Source: Ferrimonas futtsuensis DSM 18154
GTDB taxonomy: Bacteria; Pseudomonadota; Gammaproteobacteria; Enterobacterales; Shewanellaceae
Assembly (NCBI RefSeq): GCF_000422645.1
Contig: NZ_AUGL01000001.1
Coordinates: forward strand, 124,001 to 188,000
DNA length: 64,000 bases
Direction: 5' to 3'
Below the pieces are notes generated by a model. That model was not told where the DNA came from, did no database searches, and worked only from the letters and a program-made list of their open reading frames with translations. Shown here piece by piece: positions 1 through 10,510 of the stretch (its first letter is position 1; each line of letters opens with the position of its first letter). The position numbers and the translations under genes were made by a program.

Positions 1-192
1 GGCGACACCTGTGTAGGCTGCCCGAAGAAATTGCTGGAACTGGTGGACACTGAGCTGTGCGACTGGGAAACCCGACTGGAACACGGCGAAACGCCCAAGC
101 TGGGGGACATCTCCCGCCTGGCGAAGCTGTGCAAGAACGTGTACCGGGGGTTAAAGCGGAATAAACTGGTTAATTCAGACTACAAATCTTAA
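1..192 (+). CDS. C-terminal part of an unrecognised protein, cut by the window edge
   Basis: Frame 1 is open from the first base to a TAA at 190-192 and gives 63 residues. It contains two cysteines three apart near the start (CVGC), another cysteine pair further on, and a basic, Lys/Asn-rich tail. I do not recognise the family. Base composition of its first 150 bases is more balanced than the AT-rich DNA that follows, so it may mark the left border of the AT-rich microcin island. The start lies outside the window. Confidence 0.5.
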   Translation, partial: GDTCVGCPKKLLELVDTELCDWETRLEHGETPKLGDISRLAKLCKNVYRGLKRNKLVNSDYKS

Positions 193-341
193 GCTTAAAT
201 AAAAATCGACAGACTTATCCATACAGAATGTAACCCAGATACAAAATTACTATTCAAAAGGCAAGGTTCAACAAAAAACTCTAGTGTTAATTTAGTCAGT
301 TGTCCAGTTAAGACCGAACAATGATGTGAATACAGCATTTT
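193..341. other. AT-rich intergenic stretch
   Basis: About 150 bases of AT-rich DNA between the partial left-edge gene and the 3' end of the minus-strand microcin locus. I see no gene, no clear terminator and no convincing promoter here. Confidence 0.4.
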
Positions 342-536
342 TCAATACTTTACTTCCTTAGAGAATATTGACGTATACATTAATGCTAAACCAACCCACA
401 TAATGCATTCCAAGAAATCATAAGAAAAACCTTTTGCTTTATACTCACACCCTGCCGCAGAAATAAAAACAAAAATACAAATCAAAGAAAGCCAGAAAAG
501 TATCACTCTCAGAAAGCTAATGATTTTGCACATCAT
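342..536 (-). CDS. Small two-helix membrane protein, candidate microcin immunity or accessory protein
   Basis: Encodes 64 residues if started at the ATG at 534-536. That start has a GGGGAGG ribosome site about ten bases upstream; the longer open frame to 575 would put this site inside the coding region. Two hydrophobic segments are visible, about residues 5-28 and 43-60, separated by a short polar loop (CEYKAKGFS). It ends in a basic tail. It lies last in the minus-strand microcin cluster, the same strand as precursor and exporter genes. Small membrane proteins next to class II microcin genes are usually the self-immunity factor, so that is the likely role, but no family match is recognised. 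The Cys after the first helix is not in a canonical lipobox. Confidence 0.5.
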   Translation of the reverse strand: MMCKIISFLRVILFWLSLICIFVFISAAGCEYKAKGFSYDFLECIMWVGLALMYTSIFSKEVKY

Positions 537-551
537 AGCATTATGGCCTCC

Positions 552-783
552 CCTATTGCCGCCAACCATTCTCATAATGGACTTTCAATTCCATCACTTG
601 CTCAAATAATATCATGGTAGCAAATGAGGAAGAGTAGACAATTCCACACATAGCCTTTGAAGCAATATCTTTATCTTAAGGTGAATAAATACCAGATTTT
701 TCCTATGCAAGGTGAAGCATATCATTTATGACTTAGCCTCACCTTACAACTTGGGCAAATAAATCTCACAATAAATCCCCAAT
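552..783. other. Gap inside the microcin locus
   Basis: AT-rich DNA between the two small membrane-protein genes. The only other minus-strand frame of note is 553-651 (32 codons, beginning MCGIVYSS), which has no ribosome site and ends at the SD of the next gene; I do not call it. A low-complexity T/A run at 806-813 is visible. Confidence 0.4.
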
Positions 784-951
784 TCAACCTGTTCCATCCC
801 TAAGATTTTTTTTAGAAAAGTAAACCACAGGAATGGTTAAGAGTGCTGAAGTAATATATACATACAACCTAGAATCTATATTGAAGATAACATCATTAAA
901 AAATGACGTGGCAAAAAAAACAAATGAAAAGCTATAAATAATGTTTGTCAT
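784..951 (-). CDS. 55-residue membrane peptide, leading candidate for microcin immunity
   Basis: Opens with ATG at 949-951 and stops with TGA at 784-786, 40 bases after the microcin precursor stop and on the same strand. The product is very hydrophobic: a Phe-rich helix at about residues 4-20, a short acidic loop (NDVIFNIDSR), a second helix at about 29-46 and a charged tail ending KKNLRDGTG. Size, topology and position directly behind the precursor fit the immunity proteins of class IIa microcins such as ColV and MccV. The ribosome site is weak: an AGG lies 14 bases upstream and a hairpin at 960-979 sits between the two genes, so it may be read by coupling. No family recognised; the role is inferred from context. 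Confidence 0.5.
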   Translation of the reverse strand: MTNIIYSFSFVFFATSFFNDVIFNIDSRLYVYITSALLTIPVVYFSKKNLRDGTG

Positions 952-959
952 ATTTCATC

Positions 960-979
960 GGGAGGCCTAATGACCTCCC
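960..979 (-). other. Hairpin between microcin and candidate immunity gene
   Basis: Inverted repeat GGGAGG / CCTCCC with an 8-base loop, 13-32 bases after the precursor stop codon. There is no T-run on either strand, so it is not a standard terminator; it could be a processing or stability element, or could sequester the GGAGG. Confidence 0.45.
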
Positions 980-991
980 CTCCGATAAAGT

Positions 992-1213
992 TTAGTATTG
1001 TTCAATGAATTTACCAAACAAGTACCCAAAGCCACCAATAACTGCTCCAGCAGCACAAACCTGACCAAAGGCCACATTTGATGTACCACCTGTAGCTATA
1101 GAAGCCCCCATTACTGCGGTAACACACCCTGCCCCCATAGCACCAGCAAGCTCGCCAGGGCTAAAAGAGCCACCAGTAACTGAGCCCAACTGTTCCGATT
1201 GCAATTCCTTCAT
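992..1213 (-). CDS. Double-glycine-leader microcin precursor (class IIa-like bacteriocin)
   Basis: Encodes 73 residues. The first 15, MKELQSEQLGSVTGG, match the double-glycine leader pattern of class IIa microcins (ColV: MRTLTLNELDSVSGG): hydrophobic at -12 and -7, E at -8, V at -4, GG at -2/-1. Cleavage after GG would release a 58-residue peptide starting SFSPGELAG, rich in Gly and Ala, with only two cysteines (mature positions 15 and 38; one disulfide possible), several GxxxG-type spacings and an amphipathic C-terminus (GYLFGKFIEQY). Such a mature peptide is typical of membrane-inserting microcins. The start at 1211-1213 has an AGGAT site. The exporter gene ends 85 bases upstream on the same strand. 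I do not recognise the mature sequence; lack of a C-terminal serine-rich tail argues against a siderophore-conjugated class IIb microcin. Confidence 0.88.
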   Translation of the reverse strand: MKELQSEQLGSVTGGSFSPGELAGAMGAGCVTAVMGASIATGGTSNVAFGQVCAAGAVIGGFGYLFGKFIEQY

Positions 1214-1289
1214 ATCACATCCTATTTTACATCCATGTTTAAATAAGCTTGATACATAAACATAGTTTGCTTATAAACCAAGCGCCAGC

Positions 1290-1311
1290 TCAAGGGTGTT
1301 AGGACCCTTGA
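1290..1311 (-). other. Hairpin overlapping the exporter stop codon
   Basis: Perfect 8-bp inverted repeat (TCAAGGGT / ACCCTTGA) with a 6-base loop, covering the stop codon of the exporter gene (1299-1301). No U-run follows on the minus strand. It lies just upstream of the microcin gene and could stabilise or segment the transcript so that precursor mRNA exceeds exporter mRNA. Confidence 0.5.
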
Positions 1312-3476
1312 TTTAGGCCCTCAGTTGAGCCTAAATTCTTTATAAGACCAGTCTCCCAATTAGCGACATCGACTGCAGAAATGCAACCAGAGTCAATCAC
1401 CAATACCCTAGTGACGTTCTTAACTGTCTCCGGACGATGGGAAATCACTATTCTAGTCATAGTCAACCCATTGATCTCATGTAATATTCTTGCTTCATTC
1501 TCTAGGTCCAGGTGGCTAGTAGCTTCATCCAGAAACAAAATTTTTGGTCGCTTATACAAAGCCCGAGCGAGCAAAATTCGTTGAACTTGGCCACCTGAAA
1601 ATTGATTTCCCATATCTCCAACTAAACTGCTATAGCCCATTGGTAGCTTCTGTATCTCATTATGAATGGACGCAATCTGTGCACACTTTTGCATCCATAA
1701 CATATTTGGCTCAGGGTCGAAAAATGTTATGTTGTCTGCCACAGAGCCAGTAAGCAGTGTATCGTCCTGCATCACAGCTGCGACCTCCGCCCGATAACGC
1801 CTGTTGCCAAGCCCTCGAATCTCTACTCCATCCAAATAGATGCTTCCAGCATTTGGCTCTATAAGCCCAAGGAGCAACTTCATCAACGTTGTTTTTCCGC
1901 TTCCTGACGGCCCAACTATCGCAACATGCTCTCCCGGCATGACATCAAAAGCTAACTGTTCAAACAAAGGGGGCTGCGAAGGTTCATAACCATATTCCAG
2001 ACCACGAATTCTTAAGCCACCCTGAGCCTGATCCAGAGTATCCGTTCCTTCCCTATGCTTCTCCTCTTCAGCCAAAGCGATATCAGAGATTCTCTCAATG
2101 TGTAGCCTCAACATCCGAAAGATCATCAGCTGCTCAAGAAAGTTGGAGGCACGCTGAGTGAGTTGTTGTTTATAAGCCATGTAGGCCAGGACCATTCCAA
2201 CACTCAAGACTCCATCCATTACTGCAAGTGCCGCAACATAAACTACGACCACATTCTCTAGTCCAAAAAGCAGTTTATTGACAGAATCGAAGCTAATTTC
2301 TAATTTCCCCAGCCTGATATCTGCATTGATTACTTCTGCATACTGGTTCTGCCAGAGATTTTGCCTCTGAGACTCTCGTCCGAACAATTTAATTGTTTGT
2401 ATTCCTCTAATACTCTCCAAAAAGGTACTTTGCTCTGCTGCCGAAGCTCGTATAGACTCCTCTGTGGTCCTTTTCAAAGAGCGATATAGAGTCAGTTTTA
2501 AGATAGCATAAAGGCAAACAGCAGCTAAAACAATGAAGGTTAACCTAACATCATAAACAAACATCACAATCAAGACTGTAAGTACCATTATCCCATCAAC
2601 AAATGTTTCAACTAGTCCTGTAGTCAACCTCTCTCGTATCTGAGCTAAAGAACCAAACCTAGAAACCAAATCCCCTATATGCCTGGACTCGAAAAAACTC
2701 ATTGGAAGCCGAAAAAGGTGATGAAGTAGGTTTACACCTAGGTGAAAATTAAACTGAGCGGACAACCTCACGATTAGCCAGCTACGGACAACTGAAACAA
2801 CGACATTTATGATAACCAACAAAGAAAAACCTATCGCAAGCACTTTCAAAAGAGATGAATCTCTACTTAACAAAACTTCATCAACCACCCATTGCATATA
2901 GTAGGGCGACAACAATGAAAGCAACTGAATTAATAAAGTCATTGCAAGAAGAGAAACTAAACTTCTTTTAAAACCAACCATCTTGGTCCAAAGCTGATTC
3001 AGCGTCATTCTTTCTCGGTCATCTTTTCGTGTAAAATCAGACGTCGGCGTGAGCTCCAGTGCAATTCCCGTAAAATGATCTGCAAACTCATTTAACTTCA
3101 TTTGCTTACGACCCGTAGCAGGGTCAATTATAGTCACCACTGCTTTACTGGCTTTGCTCAACACAACAAAATGGTTCATGTCCCAGTGAATTACACATGG
3201 AGTTTTTAACTTACCAATCTCCTCCAATGGACATTTCAGGGCTCTGCTTGCCAACCCCAACGAATTAGCAACCTCTACCATCTCCTGAAGGTTCATTCCT
3301 TTCAGGTTGGCTCTAAATCTCTTCCTCATCGCTGGGAGGTCAACCTTTCTCCCAAAGTAACTTGCTACCATGGCAAGGCAGGCTAAGCCACACTCCGCGA
3401 CTTCAGCCTGAAGGATCACCGGTACTCGCCTTATGCCAGTAAAATCCAGAGAGTCTGTACTTACAGCATCAGACAT
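1299..3476 (-). CDS. Peptidase-containing ABC exporter for a double-glycine peptide (CvaB-like)
   Basis: 725 residues in the usual order for bacteriocin processing exporters. Residues 15-135 form a C39 cysteine protease: catalytic Cys29 in AECGLACLA, His102 in HWDMNHFVV and Asp118 in IIDPATG. A six-helix ABC transmembrane domain spans about 165-445. The ATPase follows, with Walker A GPSGSGKTT, signature FSGGQ and Walker B ILFLDEATSHLD. It would sit in the inner membrane, clip the leader of the neighbouring precursor after its GG and export the peptide through the fusion protein and a TolC-type outer-membrane channel; no TolC gene is in this window. The start ATG shares one base with the TGA of the upstream gene (TGATG), so the two are translationally coupled. 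All catalytic residues look intact. AT-rich like the rest of the locus. Confidence 0.95.
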   Translation of the reverse strand: MSDAVSTDSLDFTGIRRVPVILQAEVAECGLACLAMVASYFGRKVDLPAMRKRFRANLKGMNLQEMVEVANSLGLASRALKCPLEEIGKLKTPCVIHWDMNHFVVLSKASKAVVTIIDPATGRKQMKLNEFADHFTGIALELTPTSDFTRKDDRERMTLNQLWTKMVGFKRSLVSLLAMTLLIQLLSLLSPYYMQWVVDEVLLSRDSSLLKVLAIGFSLLVIINVVVSVVRSWLIVRLSAQFNFHLGVNLLHHLFRLPMSFFESRHIGDLVSRFGSLAQIRERLTTGLVETFVDGIMVLTVLIVMFVYDVRLTFIVLAAVCLYAILKLTLYRSLKRTTEESIRASAAEQSTFLESIRGIQTIKLFGRESQRQNLWQNQYAEVINADIRLGKLEISFDSVNKLLFGLENVVVVYVAALAVMDGVLSVGMVLAYMAYKQQLTQRASNFLEQLMIFRMLRLHIERISDIALAEEEKHREGTDTLDQAQGGLRIRGLEYGYEPSQPPLFEQLAFDVMPGEHVAIVGPSGSGKTTLMKLLLGLIEPNAGSIYLDGVEIRGLGNRRYRAEVAAVMQDDTLLTGSVADNITFFDPEPNMLWMQKCAQIASIHNEIQKLPMGYSSLVGDMGNQFSGGQVQRILLARALYKRPKILFLDEATSHLDLENEARILHEINGLTMTRIVISHRPETVKNVTRVLVIDSGCISAVDVANWETGLIKNLGSTEGLNQGS

Positions 3477-4720
3477 CAGCCGATCCTCCCTTTCAGGCTA
3501 TAGATGGGATCGAGTAGCCACTGCATCAGCGATCGACGCTCTAAGATAATATCAGCTTCAAGTAACATCCCACTTCTCAGGGGAATAGCGTACCCATAAG
3601 CATCGATACTTTGCTTAGGTAGATTTGCCCGAACGCGGTAAAAAGATTCTCCTAATTCGATCGGTAATCGGACATCGTGTGAAGTTAAAATCGCCTTGTC
3701 GACTTGACTAACAGTGGACTCAATAGAGCCAAATCGTTGATAAGGAAATGCATCAAGCCTAAGCCTCGTAATAGCACCGCTCTTAACAAATCCTGCAGAG
3801 CGGCTTGGGAGCAACAGCTCCGCGACCAAAACTGCTCCCTCCGGCAGAATACTAAGCAAGGCCACTCCTGACTTTAAGAACTCTCCATCGGAAATACGGA
3901 TTGCAGTAACTACTCCAGAAGTGGTGGCACGAATTACGTACCGAAATCTATTCTCCACCTCTTTCTGCTGACGAAGAAGTGATACACGACGCCTATCCAG
4001 CTCTACTTGTTCAAGTTGGCTTCGCTGCGGAAGGTCTTCTAATTTTAACTTAGTCTGATTTTGCTTCATTCTCACATTAGCAATGTCAGACTCAGCCTGT
4101 TCCACGGCATGACGAACAAGTAGCAGTTGCTCTTTCTGACTCTGGTATTCAACGTGTGAAATAAACTGCTTTTTATATAAAGATTCAGCTCTTGCGAACA
4201 ACTTGGTTTTCAGTGACAACCTTTGAAGCAATGTTTTTCGTTGAGTCTGAAGGGTATTTAAGTATAGCTCTAGCGACTTTGATTCTTCATGCAGTTTGTT
4301 TTCCTCTAACTCCATGACTATTTTTCTTTTATCCCTTTCTTTCTGAATCAATACCAGCCGCTGTGAAATCTCCTCAGTCAAGGAATGCTCCAGTTCTCCT
4401 CCCGACGCTAAAGAGCGCACTTTAGAAATAGTCACCAAGGGCTGACCCTTACGAATGACTTCACCCTCTTTAACATGCAGTCGCCTTACTGCACCTGCCC
4501 CATCAGCATAGACATTGACCATTCCTTTGTCCGGCTTAAGATAACCTTTCACTGTCTCTTTTCGCGCATAATCTGACAACGCAATAAAGGTCCCCACCAA
4601 CAAGACAATACAAAGCAAAGTCGAAGCCAACACATGCAGTGACAAAGGTTGGGAAAGCCACACCTCGCCTTGTAGCCGCTTTCCTTGGGCCTCGACAGCC
4701 TGACGACGAAAAAGAGACAT
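3476..4720 (-). CDS. HlyD-family membrane fusion protein of the microcin exporter (CvaA-like)
   Basis: 414 residues, nearly the length of ColV secretion protein CvaA. One N-terminal transmembrane helix lies at about residues 28-49. A first lipoyl half (YADGAGAVRRLHVKEGEVIRKG) follows, then a long charged coiled-coil hairpin of roughly residues 105-255, the second lipoyl half (RATTSGVVTAIRISDGEFLKSG) and a C-terminal beta domain ending in ILERRSLMQWLLDPIYSLK, which resembles the CvaA C-terminus. It should bridge the inner-membrane ABC exporter and an outer-membrane TolC channel. It is first gene of the minus-strand cluster with a good GGAGG site 8 bases before the ATG, and overlaps the exporter start by one base. 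Confidence 0.92.
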   Translation of the reverse strand: MSLFRRQAVEAQGKRLQGEVWLSQPLSLHVLASTLLCIVLLVGTFIALSDYARKETVKGYLKPDKGMVNVYADGAGAVRRLHVKEGEVIRKGQPLVTISKVRSLASGGELEHSLTEEISQRLVLIQKERDKRKIVMELEENKLHEESKSLELYLNTLQTQRKTLLQRLSLKTKLFARAESLYKKQFISHVEYQSQKEQLLLVRHAVEQAESDIANVRMKQNQTKLKLEDLPQRSQLEQVELDRRRVSLLRQQKEVENRFRYVIRATTSGVVTAIRISDGEFLKSGVALLSILPEGAVLVAELLLPSRSAGFVKSGAITRLRLDAFPYQRFGSIESTVSQVDKAILTSHDVRLPIELGESFYRVRANLPKQSIDAYGYAIPLRSGMLLEADIILERRSLMQWLLDPIYSLKGRIG

Positions 4721-5054
4721 CTGTTCAACCTCCGCTCACAATTACATCGAACTTGCGTCGAAATTAGCAGTGGTGTTTATGACGATTAGAGTAATCACAA
4801 ATTATCACCTGATGACCTCTCCTCTATTTTGTTATGACTAGTTGTGACGTACGGGTGATTTCCTATGCACATTACATATAGAACTAAATTTCTTGTGGGA
4901 GCTCAGCTACATACATTTTGGTAACAAAGCTGAATCAAATTGGATGCAAGACCCAAGTCCCCCTTCTCTTTGGACTTTATAGGTATATCCCTACCGCGAT
5001 TCGACGACTAAAATCGACTCATCCTTACCCTACTCTCGACCAAAAGGACCTTGG
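4721..5054. other. Promoter region upstream of the microcin locus
   Basis: 334 bases without a gene, at the AT-rich to GC-rich transition. It must hold the leftward promoter of the exporter-microcin cluster and the rightward promoter of the small gene at 5055. I could not identify a confident Fur box, LexA box or other operator. Short minus-strand frames here are all under 30 codons and unsupported. Confidence 0.4.
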
Positions 5055-5315
5055 ATGCGCCCGTTTGAGCGCCTGCTCGCTGTGATGTTGTGGCTGGAAG
5101 TCGCTGTGGCTCCGGCTCTGCTGTGTGCATTGCTGGGCAGTGTCTATTGCATCGTCGCCGATCACTTGGAACTGACTTTGGTGGGCTGGTGGGCCTTAGC
5201 AGGGCTGGTGCCTGGAGTGATTGCCGCCGAATACATCCGGCGCACACGGGGGTTAGTGATTCCCATTGCCAACTGCCTGCCTGGTTCAGACGGCAAGAAG
5301 CGCAGGCTCAGTTAG
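5055..5315 (+). CDS. Small two-helix membrane protein of unknown function
   Basis: 86 residues starting at an ATG with an AAAGGA site nine bases upstream. Two hydrophobic segments are visible, about residues 8-34 and 41-60, followed by a basic tail (RRTRG, KKRR). I do not recognise a family. GC content is higher than in the microcin locus to its left, so it is probably outside that island. It is convergent with the CAP-domain gene, whose stop lies 6 bases beyond its own. Confidence 0.55.
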   Translation: MRPFERLLAVMLWLEVAVAPALLCALLGSVYCIVADHLELTLVGWWALAGLVPGVIAAEYIRRTRGLVIPIANCLPGSDGKKRRLS

Positions 5316-7969: not shown

Positions 7970-8101
7970 TCACAACACTCTCGAAGAGATTCGGCGCTTG
8001 GCCGAGTCTCTCGGCCTTCGGTGCACGCTCCCCGGTGAGGTGCCGCAGTGTTGGGCGTGCCCCCTTTAAGGTACACTGCCCCCTCTTCAGGAGGGCGCCC
8101 T

Positions 8102-9115: not shown

Positions 9116-10510
9116 TTACTCAGCCGCAAAGTGTTGGCTGAGTCTGGTCATCACCACCGAAGGCACCACCACCCTGTCGCTGAGCAGAAAGTCTGCCACG
9201 CTCTGATCGAAAGAGCGGTAGTGCAGCTTGGCCTCGACGCTGTAACCACCCTCGGGCAGCTCAAAGCCATATTCCACCGTCTTGTTGCCCTTGGCGGGAA
9301 TGGTGTTCTCCTGGACGAAGCGAGCCACCTTCCAAGGCTTGTGTTCCGGCTTACCCTTCTCATCCACCGAGGCATCCTGGAACACCACGGTGCCCTCTGG
9401 CAGCAAGTTCTCGTCCGTCAGGGTGCCGGAGCGCAGCAGCTCATGACCGGCGTCATCACGCACCACCACCTCGAGCCAGATCTGGCGGATGAAGGTCAGG
9501 CTGGTCGGCAGGGCGTGGCCGGCGCGGCGGTTGTGCACCGTCAGCTGCAGGGTGGCCTGGTCGTCCTGCTGCACCACCTTGGCGTCCAGAGAGGCCGCAC
9601 TCTGCAGGCGCTTTATCGCCTCGACCGCGTGCTCTTCACCGTTCTTGACGCCCAGCAGAGGTGCCAGCACCGCGTTGCCACCGACAAAACCGTGGTCGTG
9701 CACCAGGGCGCGCTCCTTACCGCCTCGGGCCGCCGGCCCACCCAGACCATGATCCGCCAGCTCGGAGACCGGCTTCATCTCATCGGCCACACGGATGGCG
9801 GCGTCCACCGGCACCATGTGACAGTCCTGGCACTGAATCCCCTTGGCGGCGTACTCGGATTCCTTCCATTCCTGGTAGGTGTGTTCCAGGGCGAAGTCGT
9901 GGGCCGGGTTAAACACGTTGTGGCAGTTGGCGCAGAACTCCGATTTGGTGTGCAGTTCGCTGTACTTGGCTTTGTGGCCCCGGGCCTTGGGGTCTGTCAG
10001 AGGGCCGCGCTTGATGCCGTCATTGGCCAGGGCCAGAGACGCGTTGCCATGCTCGCCCATGGAGGTGTGGCGCATGTTGGTGTCTTCGACGCTGTGGCAA
10101 ACGTCGCAGGAGACCCCGGTGGTGGCCATCTTCTCGGTGGTGAAAGCGCCGTATTTGCCGGTCTCAGGGTGAAACTCCACCTTCTGGGTGACGGTGCCCA
10201 CGGCGGTGTGGCAACCGCCACACAGGTTCTTGGTGGCGCCGTCGGTTTCCCGGTCGCCCAGGGCCCACTCGGCCTGGAACACCGGGTCGATGAAGGCGAT
10301 GGAGTGCATGGAGCCCTGCCAGCCTTCCCACTGACGGGGGTGGCACCCTTTACAACGCTTGGGGTCGCTCCAATCCTTCAGTTGTGGGGCGTTGTCGCCC
10401 ACCACGCTGAGGTAGGAGGGGGCGTAGGGCTGGGTCTCTGAGGCCTGGGCCAGCATCGGCAGAGCGGCGCACAGCAGCGCCGGTAAGAGTTTCAGTTCCA
10501 ACTTCATCAT
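9116..10510 (-). CDS. Periplasmic pentahaem c-type cytochrome (cytochrome c554-like)
   Basis: 464 residues from the ATG at 10508-10510, which has an AGGAAG site and opens a signal peptide (LLPALLCAALPMLAQA); the 44 codons upstream are not plausible coding sequence. Five CxxCH haem sites are visible: CKGCH, CGGCH, CDVCH, CANCH and CQDCH, all in the first 60 percent of the protein, with distal His candidates such as GSMHS and GEHGN. The C-terminal 170 residues lack haems and look like a beta-rich domain. It should carry electrons in the periplasm during anaerobic respiration. Its partner oxidoreductase is not adjacent. The family assignment to c554-type is tentative; the multihaem nature is certain. 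Confidence 0.88.
   Translation of the reverse strand: MMKLELKLLPALLCAALPMLAQASETQPYAPSYLSVVGDNAPQLKDWSDPKRCKGCHPRQWEGWQGSMHSIAFIDPVFQAEWALGDRETDGATKNLCGGCHTAVGTVTQKVEFHPETGKYGAFTTEKMATTGVSCDVCHSVEDTNMRHTSMGEHGNASLALANDGIKRGPLTDPKARGHKAKYSELHTKSEFCANCHNVFNPAHDFALEHTYQEWKESEYAAKGIQCQDCHMVPVDAAIRVADEMKPVSELADHGLGGPAARGGKERALVHDHGFVGGNAVLAPLLGVKNGEEHAVEAIKRLQSAASLDAKVVQQDDQATLQLTVHNRRAGHALPTSLTFIRQIWLEVVVRDDAGHELLRSGTLTDENLLPEGTVVFQDASVDEKGKPEHKPWKVARFVQENTIPAKGNKTVEYGFELPEGGYSVEAKLHYRSFDQSVADFLLSDRVVVPSVVMTRLSQHFAAE

Follow-up and report, generated by a model that had tools for sequence, protein, structure and literature searches.

A putative chromosomal class II microcin-like operon of Ferrimonas futtsuensis and the apparent exchange of its peptide cargo

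Five codirectional open reading frames (ORFs) near one end of a 64,000-nucleotide stretch of Ferrimonas futtsuensis DSM 18154 DNA (contig NZ_AUGL01000001.1, positions 124,001 to 188,000; the whole stretch is here called the window) raise the question of whether they form a bacteriocin operon, and of why nearly the same exporter stands beside other peptides in a related genome. All positions are window coordinates (G000:C1:124001-188000), where G000 is the genome of this strain; other G-numbers denote the genomes compared and L-numbers the loci (DNA stretches) examined. We read the locus, with a probability of about 0.78, as a class II microcin-like bacteriocin operon on the chromosome of a Ferrimonas. 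This reading is based on: (i) the catalytic triad of the exporter; (ii) the rank of the precursor by its leader; (iii) purifying selection on the export genes; (iv) two TolC-type matches elsewhere in the genome; (v) a gene order shared with mcbABCI of Moraxella catarrhalis; and (vi) the varied cargo found at the same site in other genomes. The features, with lengths in amino acids (aa), are as follows.

3476 to 4720, minus strand: HlyD/CvaA-type membrane fusion protein (adaptor), 414 aa; matched by HlyD_3 (3.1e-13)
1299 to 3476, minus strand: CvaB-type ABC exporter with a C39 peptidase domain, 725 aa; identified by Pfam domains, the triad, and the copy in G011
992 to 1213, minus strand: precursor peptide, 73 aa, with a 15-aa double-glycine (GG) leader and a 58-aa mature part; identified by the leader profile
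954 to 989, minus strand: RNA hairpin in the gap between the precursor and the 55-aa ORF; identified by folding energy and counterparts in relatives
784 to 951, minus strand: hydrophobic ORF of 55 aa, first immunity candidate; next in position after the peptide
583 to 762, minus strand: putative decayed remnant of a zinc-ribbon membrane ORF; pieces resemble a 103-aa ORF of G011, suggestive only
342 to 575, minus strand: hydrophobic ORF of 77 aa, second immunity candidate; one predicted helix
173 to 1515, no strand: apparently exchanged segment, made up of the cargo module and the adjoining 3′ end of the exporter gene; marked by a drop in identity to G011

Gene content of the locus

The five ORFs were present on the minus strand where the original prediction, a description of this DNA made from its letters, had placed them, and their content supports its view of an apparently complete operon of the class II microcin-like (GG-bacteriocin) kind. 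The exporter matched the Pfam domains Peptidase_C39 (4.5e-35), ABC_membrane (8.8e-40), and ABC_tran (6e-31), and the triad claimed for its C39 domain was located at Cys29, His102, and Asp118. Its nearest NCBIfam models were those of NHLM, HlyB, and LssB exporters, with the best 25 of 194 all under their cut-offs. The adaptor matched HlyD_D23 (4.5e-13) in addition to HlyD_3, and its match to TIGR01843 (2.1e-43) was under the model cut-off. The stop codon of the adaptor gene and the start codon of the exporter gene overlap by one base in the sequence TGATG. When compared with G011, the ratio of nonsynonymous to synonymous substitution (dN/dS) was 0.11 for the exporter and likewise 0.11 for the adaptor; both are under purifying selection. 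Two TolC-type matches above the TIGR01844 cut-off were detected elsewhere in the genome, on C16 (369.8 bits) and C15 (303.5 bits), the latter containing one in-frame TGA. G000 also encodes another exporter, distantly related and with a C39-like domain, at G000:C15:10645-12675 (inside L004), about 4 kb from the TolC-type gene that carries the in-frame TGA.

The precursor opens with MKELQSEQLGSVTGG, and its predicted mature part of 58 residues is rich in Gly and Ala, starts with SFSPGELAG, ends with FGKFIEQY, and has two Cys residues, leaving room for one disulfide. At less than 10 kDa and with a GG leader, it is of the class II type by the criterion of size and leader. The precursor was checked as a possible fragment of a larger gene and found not to be one; the frame that holds it spans 92 codons between stops. 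For the leader, a profile was made from 105 distinct examples at other loci (own locus excluded, leaders of fewer than 15 residues dropped), which had themselves been chosen by a GG-leader motif. Of the 601 ORFs of ≥30 aa in the window, this profile ranked the precursor first (10.7 bits; runner-up, 2.8). The leader had been described as near-textbook, and this held in part: it passes a looser GG motif but fails the strict one by a Gln at position −11. The Gram-negative GG leader form given in the Aliivibrio wodanis bacteriocin paper is M(R/K)ELx3E(I/L)x2(I/V)xG(G/A) (PMC4462113), and the F. futtsuensis leader has Gln where this form has Glu. The mature peptide had been called unfamiliar, and consistent with this, no Pfam or NCBIfam family matched the precursor above cut-off (Pfam Bacteriocin_IIc reached 11.2 bits against a cut-off of 27.1; NCBIfam gave none). 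The missing family match weighs little, as class II core peptides are reported to be highly variable (PMC9746304).

The hairpin at 954 to 989 has a predicted energy of −17.9 kcal/mol (z −2.70 relative to dinucleotide shuffles), with counterparts at the same position in G011 (z −2.98) and G012 (z −2.42). Among 124 distinct GG-peptide ORFs, retained from 153 rows after candidates with a motif score <5 and duplicates were dropped, the 60 bases after the stop codon had z < −2 in 68, compared with 17 of 124 for a control taken 300 bases further on (mononucleotide shuffles). The role of the hairpin may be to terminate or protect most transcripts just past the peptide gene.

Peptide cargo at the Ferrimonas site

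The cassette (195 to 5000) has a G+C content of 42%, compared with 60% for the remaining window. It is flanked on one side by an ORF of 944 aa, which we take to be UvrA by recognition and not by a family search, and then a short reading frame ending at about 192; on the other side is a CAP-domain gene. Besides the five ORFs named above, none longer than 70 aa was found within the cassette, and no tRNA was detected in L003, a 20-kb stretch that starts 12 kb ahead of the window and ends at base 8000. A query of the flank matched 14 of 14 genomes of the genus, nearly full-length in five; of these five, one lacks the cassette and the other four have it, with differing peptides. Thus, four genomes have four cargos at one site: one peptide in G000, two in G011, one in G012, and two in G008, with the flanks in G012 and G008 the same and the peptides other. 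In G005, the UvrA flank and the CAP gene are separated by 771 bases (L157, 10804 to 11575), compared with about 5.2 kb in G000, and no exporter match was found in this genome at E 1e-60.

The comparison with G011 was the closest. Its exporter protein is 90% identical to that of F. futtsuensis, and beside it are two different GG peptides and a zinc-ribbon membrane ORF of 103 aa. The original prediction had named, as grounds for doubt, an exporter that serves a different adjacent substrate and a small ORF not conserved with it; half of this was observed in G011, where conservation of the exporter does not extend to the precursor, a pattern that fits an exchange of cargo and does not discount the small ORF. 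By blastn, G011 had no match over the peptide module. When DNA identity was examined in 300-base bins, it was 94 to 96% on the UvrA side and 86 to 95% over the adaptor and most of the exporter gene. In 50-base bins, identity was 80 to 96% over 1560 to 1909, 82% at 1510 to 1559, and 50 to 66% over 1210 to 1509, with one outlying bin within the exporter gene (1960 to 2009, 74%). A boundary immediately ahead of the precursor coding sequence had been considered; it was overturned by the finer bins, which place it within the exporter gene near 1515. At the downstream edge, identity was 93% up to 148, 78% at 149 to 178, and 60% or less beyond. The apparently exchanged segment, therefore, takes in the last ~210 bases (~70 codons) of the exporter gene. 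Synonymous divergence (dS) from G011 was 0.51 for the exporter and 0.29 for the adaptor, and a 3′ end acquired by transfer would fit the higher of the two values. When the mature peptides of G000, G011, G012, and G008 were aligned in pairs, 14 of 15 pairs were beaten by at least 17 of 500 shuffles.

Overall, the cargo at the Ferrimonas site looks to have been swapped and most of the export machinery kept, as judged by these alignments. A further suggestion, which we put forward tentatively and at somewhat less than even odds, is that the site is a dedicated exchange slot at which recombination swaps blocks of toxin and immunity genes, much as happens at polymorphic toxin loci, and leaves behind decaying or residual immunity genes. 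In such a slot, homologous recombination would be anchored on one side in conserved exporter sequence and on the other in the downstream flank. That recombination caused the difference in cargo, and the direction in which it went, are what we infer from the comparison.

Related loci, immunity candidates, and rival explanations

Relatives of the exporter (E ≤ 1e-60) were found in 43 of the 97 genomes around G000, own genome included, and a scan of the genome contigs gave 93 exporter relatives. The loci examined (n = 101) comprised the best 80 of these 93, 20 genome stretches, and the F. futtsuensis locus, and included 84 distinct exporters; the best 80 were mostly from Shewanella, Colwellia, Thalassotalea, Pseudoalteromonas, Psychrosphaera, Ferrimonas, and Vibrionales, with a few more distant. 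An ORF with a strict GG leader was found within 4.5 kb on the same strand for 59 of the 84 distinct exporters (98 ORFs), compared with 0 of 84 on the opposite strand, and 25 of the 84 loci had more than one. An ORF of at least 45 aa occurred within 200 nucleotides after 70 of 75 peptide clusters; 52 of these 70 were no longer than 130 aa, and 44 of the 52 had a predicted helix, a count made without a control. The strict GG-peptide ORFs were evenly divided between positions upstream (49 of 98) and downstream (49 of 98) of the exporter. At L076, at least eight GG candidates were observed around the exporter, and L075, L069, and others also had upstream peptides.

The relatives of the peptide itself were less readily found. 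A single-sequence search of the 97 genomes with the precursor returned its own gene (8.6e-42) and a next best match of 0.0088, that is, no clear homologue, and no match was found in the plasmid collection. Matches at E ≤ 1 were obtained in 41 of 97 genomes (own included) and look to be mostly chance likeness of Gly-rich sequence; one weak match, in G012 (E 0.43), is the GG peptide adjoining the exporter of that genome. Pairwise phmmer and BLAST matches to other GG peptides were distrusted for their composition bias. In a shuffle test of the peptide against 123 GG peptides, 3 reached ≤1/500. Four GG peptides share a pattern with it, one from Pseudoalteromonas, two from an Alteromonadaceae bin, and one from an alphaproteobacterial bin; in the C-terminal GG..YL pattern of these four and the F. 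futtsuensis peptide, the G, Y, and L are invariant. A profile of the mature parts of the four scored the F. futtsuensis peptide at 27.3 bits, a value equaled by 0 of 5000 shuffles (best, 24.7). Two further GG peptides scored alike (30.1 and 27.2 bits), and the peptide family is thus loose, as is the kinship of this peptide to its four relatives when judged by such profiles. An alignment that included the leader matched 12 of 394 genomes, own included; at the 12 other loci matched, a leader-bearing ORF was present in all 12, with 11 leaders ending in GG and one (L170) in GS. The leader contributes to these scores, which therefore fall short of proof that the mature parts are related.

Hydrophobic ORFs of 55 to 80 aa follow all four peptide relatives, starting −26 to +59 bases from the peptide stop codon, and by this analogy the 55-aa ORF is the first candidate for an immunity protein; it is the next ORF after the peptide, a position like that of mcbI. 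Its best comparison with the small ORFs after related peptides (6 of 300 shuffles) was not significant. The 77-aa ORF, for which one helix is predicted, possibly starts 13 to 14 codons later, behind a GGGGAGG noted by eye. Between these two ORFs are pieces that resemble the zinc-ribbon ORF of G011, including a CPSC at 757 to 746 and a segment at 642 to 583 with 50% identity over 20 aa to the C-terminus of the 103-aa ORF (E 0.003). The pieces are ordered as in G011 but lie nearer each other, and their best local score was reached by 4 of 1000 shuffles; we consider the odds about even that this putative remnant is a trace of an earlier module. Zinc-ribbon membrane ORFs (CxxC...CxxC) of ~100 aa were observed after GG-peptide pairs in G011, G008, and L165, at L137:4906-5214 (minus strand), L139:9349-9633 and 9647-9952, and L165:1911-2225, with weaker matches in L131, L061, L129, L060, L141, L101, and L102. 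No Pfam family above cut-off was found for the first three (L137 and both in L139). These ORFs are candidates for a putative immunity family of two-peptide bacteriocins.

By analogy with class II microcins (PMC9746304) and mcbABCI (PMC2761928), the 73-residue precursor would be made and its 15-residue leader bound by the C39 domain, which would cut after GG. The 58-residue peptide would then exit via the exporter, the HlyD-type adaptor, and a TolC encoded elsewhere. Being rich in small residues, the peptide would most likely act on close relatives by inserting into their inner membrane and depolarizing it, a step suggested by composition only. The producer would be protected by the product of the 55-aa ORF or, alternatively, the 77-aa ORF.

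Several observations weigh against reading the locus as a functional operon with exchanged cargo. A scan over 150 to 5100 found four promoter-like sites, compared with a mean of 8.9 in shuffles, with none ahead of the HlyD gene; a terminator scan likewise gave fewer sites than shuffles. A strict GG ORF was absent from 25 of 84 exporter loci, including this one, where the looser motif finds it. The 19-residue hydropathy rule calls no helix in the 55-aa ORF. Among 14 Ferrimonas genomes, only G000 had clear copies of the precursor, the 55-aa ORF, and the 77-aa ORF. Finally, when the F. futtsuensis peptide was compared with the second peptide of G011, 0 of 500 shuffles were as good (1 of 500 in a separate run); the likeness is a 28-residue stretch around GAVIGG, and this part may, from its sequence, have diverged from a shared ancestor.

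Of the rival explanations, the one that survives best, unlikely as it is, is that the GG peptide acts on its own population through autolysis or biofilm formation. A precedent is Synechococcus, in which GG proteins reportedly act in biofilm development. Another is the Naps of Neisseria, bacteriocin-like GG peptides without detectable antimicrobial activity that promote autolysis (PMC11798529); however, the nap island is reported to encode a C39 peptidase and a FapF-related channel, unlike the locus described here (PMC11798529), and the differing peptides of the four genomes and the small ORF after most peptide clusters are a better fit to toxin and immunity. Less probable again is that the module is decaying, with the exporter serving another substrate elsewhere and the precursor and its neighbors left as remnants after exchange. 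The putative zinc-ribbon remnant inside the module and the AT-rich composition of the two small ORFs (29% and 36% G+C) are in line with decay, but the precursor frame is intact, its leader ranks first of 601, and the hairpin is in the usual place. A siderophore-carrying class IIb microcin, whose exporter would be of the same class, is scarcely credible, as the cassette has no maturation gene (families of that kind were not looked for in the ORFs to either side) and the peptide ends in FGKFIEQY, whereas class IIb microcins are known for a Ser-rich C-terminus. The class II microcin-like operon remains the preferred reading. It adds a candidate bacteriocin with no clear single-sequence homologue in the collections searched. 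One site with four cargos, an exporter-less counterpart, and mapped changes in identity also provide a natural comparison for how toxins change while the exporter is kept in Gram-negative bacteria, and the hairpin after the peptide and the small zinc-ribbon membrane ORFs are testable features of such operons.

Comparison with known systems

Novelty in an Alteromonadales-like background, which the original prediction had proposed, does not stand: exporter relatives with adjoining GG peptides are common there, some of them already annotated. The premise falls on the annotations in Shewanella oneidensis, the many exporter loci with GG peptides, and a published Shewanella C39 peptidase. On the S. 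oneidensis MR-1 megaplasmid (NC_004349), SO_RS22360-RS22345 have the same gene order and an exporter 61.9% identical to that of F. futtsuensis, with two Gly-rich peptides of two Cys each annotated "bacteriocin-like peptide"; the differences are that there are two peptides, on a plasmid, with other mature sequences and a first leader ending in NGS. SO_A0049 is described as the Shewanella C39 peptidase that serves bacteriocins and microcins (Romine 2011, PMC3223724) and is presumably the exporter matched on this megaplasmid. In the cinful survey, class II microcin hits were reported in 2.8% of Vibrionaceae (PMC9746304), and a term search of PMC11494933 turned up no marine taxa. Among the matches listed for Ferrimonas and bacteriocins, none dealt with the subject by its title, and no title listed pointed to a published account of this locus or of exchange at such a site.

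The arrangement is that of Moraxella catarrhalis mcbABCI, which shares the order adaptor, C39 exporter, GG peptide, and small downstream ORF, all codirectional (PMC2761928). The mcb genes are reported to be transcriptionally linked and located on a plasmid or the chromosome, with killing and immunity shown by mutants and cloning and with McbC described as having little similarity to other proteins (PMC2761928). The two loci differ in that mcbI overlaps mcbC (PMC2761928), whereas 40 nucleotides with a hairpin separate the corresponding ORFs of F. futtsuensis. On Aliivibrio wodanis pAWOD920 (LN554848), the exporter AWOD_p920_37 is 52% identical to that of F. futtsuensis. The bacteriocin paper on this plasmid reports inhibition on plates, also by isolates predicted to be without the pAWOD920 locus (PMC4462113). 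As the published bacteriocin locus is tagged AWOD_p920_61 to 66, AWOD_p920_37 is another exporter; the published locus is also different in having mceI/mceJ-like genes and an Abi-type protein (PMC4462113). Acinetobacter Mcc17978 is similar in being a microcin with a GG/GA leader, encoded with an exporter and HlyD protein outside Enterobacterales, and its inhibition and self-protection are reported as demonstrated; it differs in a leader that ends in GA and a suggested immunity factor that is cupin-like (PMC10333792).

Class II microcin systems are described as having five components, and class IIa, listed as V, L, N, PDI, and S, as having a product unmodified except for disulfides (PMC9746304). 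Of the five components, G000 has the small GG-leader precursor, the C39 exporter with its triad, the membrane fusion protein, and TolC-type proteins, and for the fifth, a cognate immunity protein, there are the two small hydrophobic ORFs as candidates. No curated family matched at cut-off, and the F. futtsuensis locus, known from its genes alone, is compared with class IIa by description and not by sequence. By this description, the two have in common: (i) the size of the precursor, its GG leader, and one Cys pair; (ii) an exporter with a Cys/His/Asp triad, together with an adaptor and a TolC encoded elsewhere; and (iii) a small hydrophobic ORF nearby. Overall, a peptide without a clear single-sequence homologue is here encoded in a locus that belongs to an already known kind of cluster.

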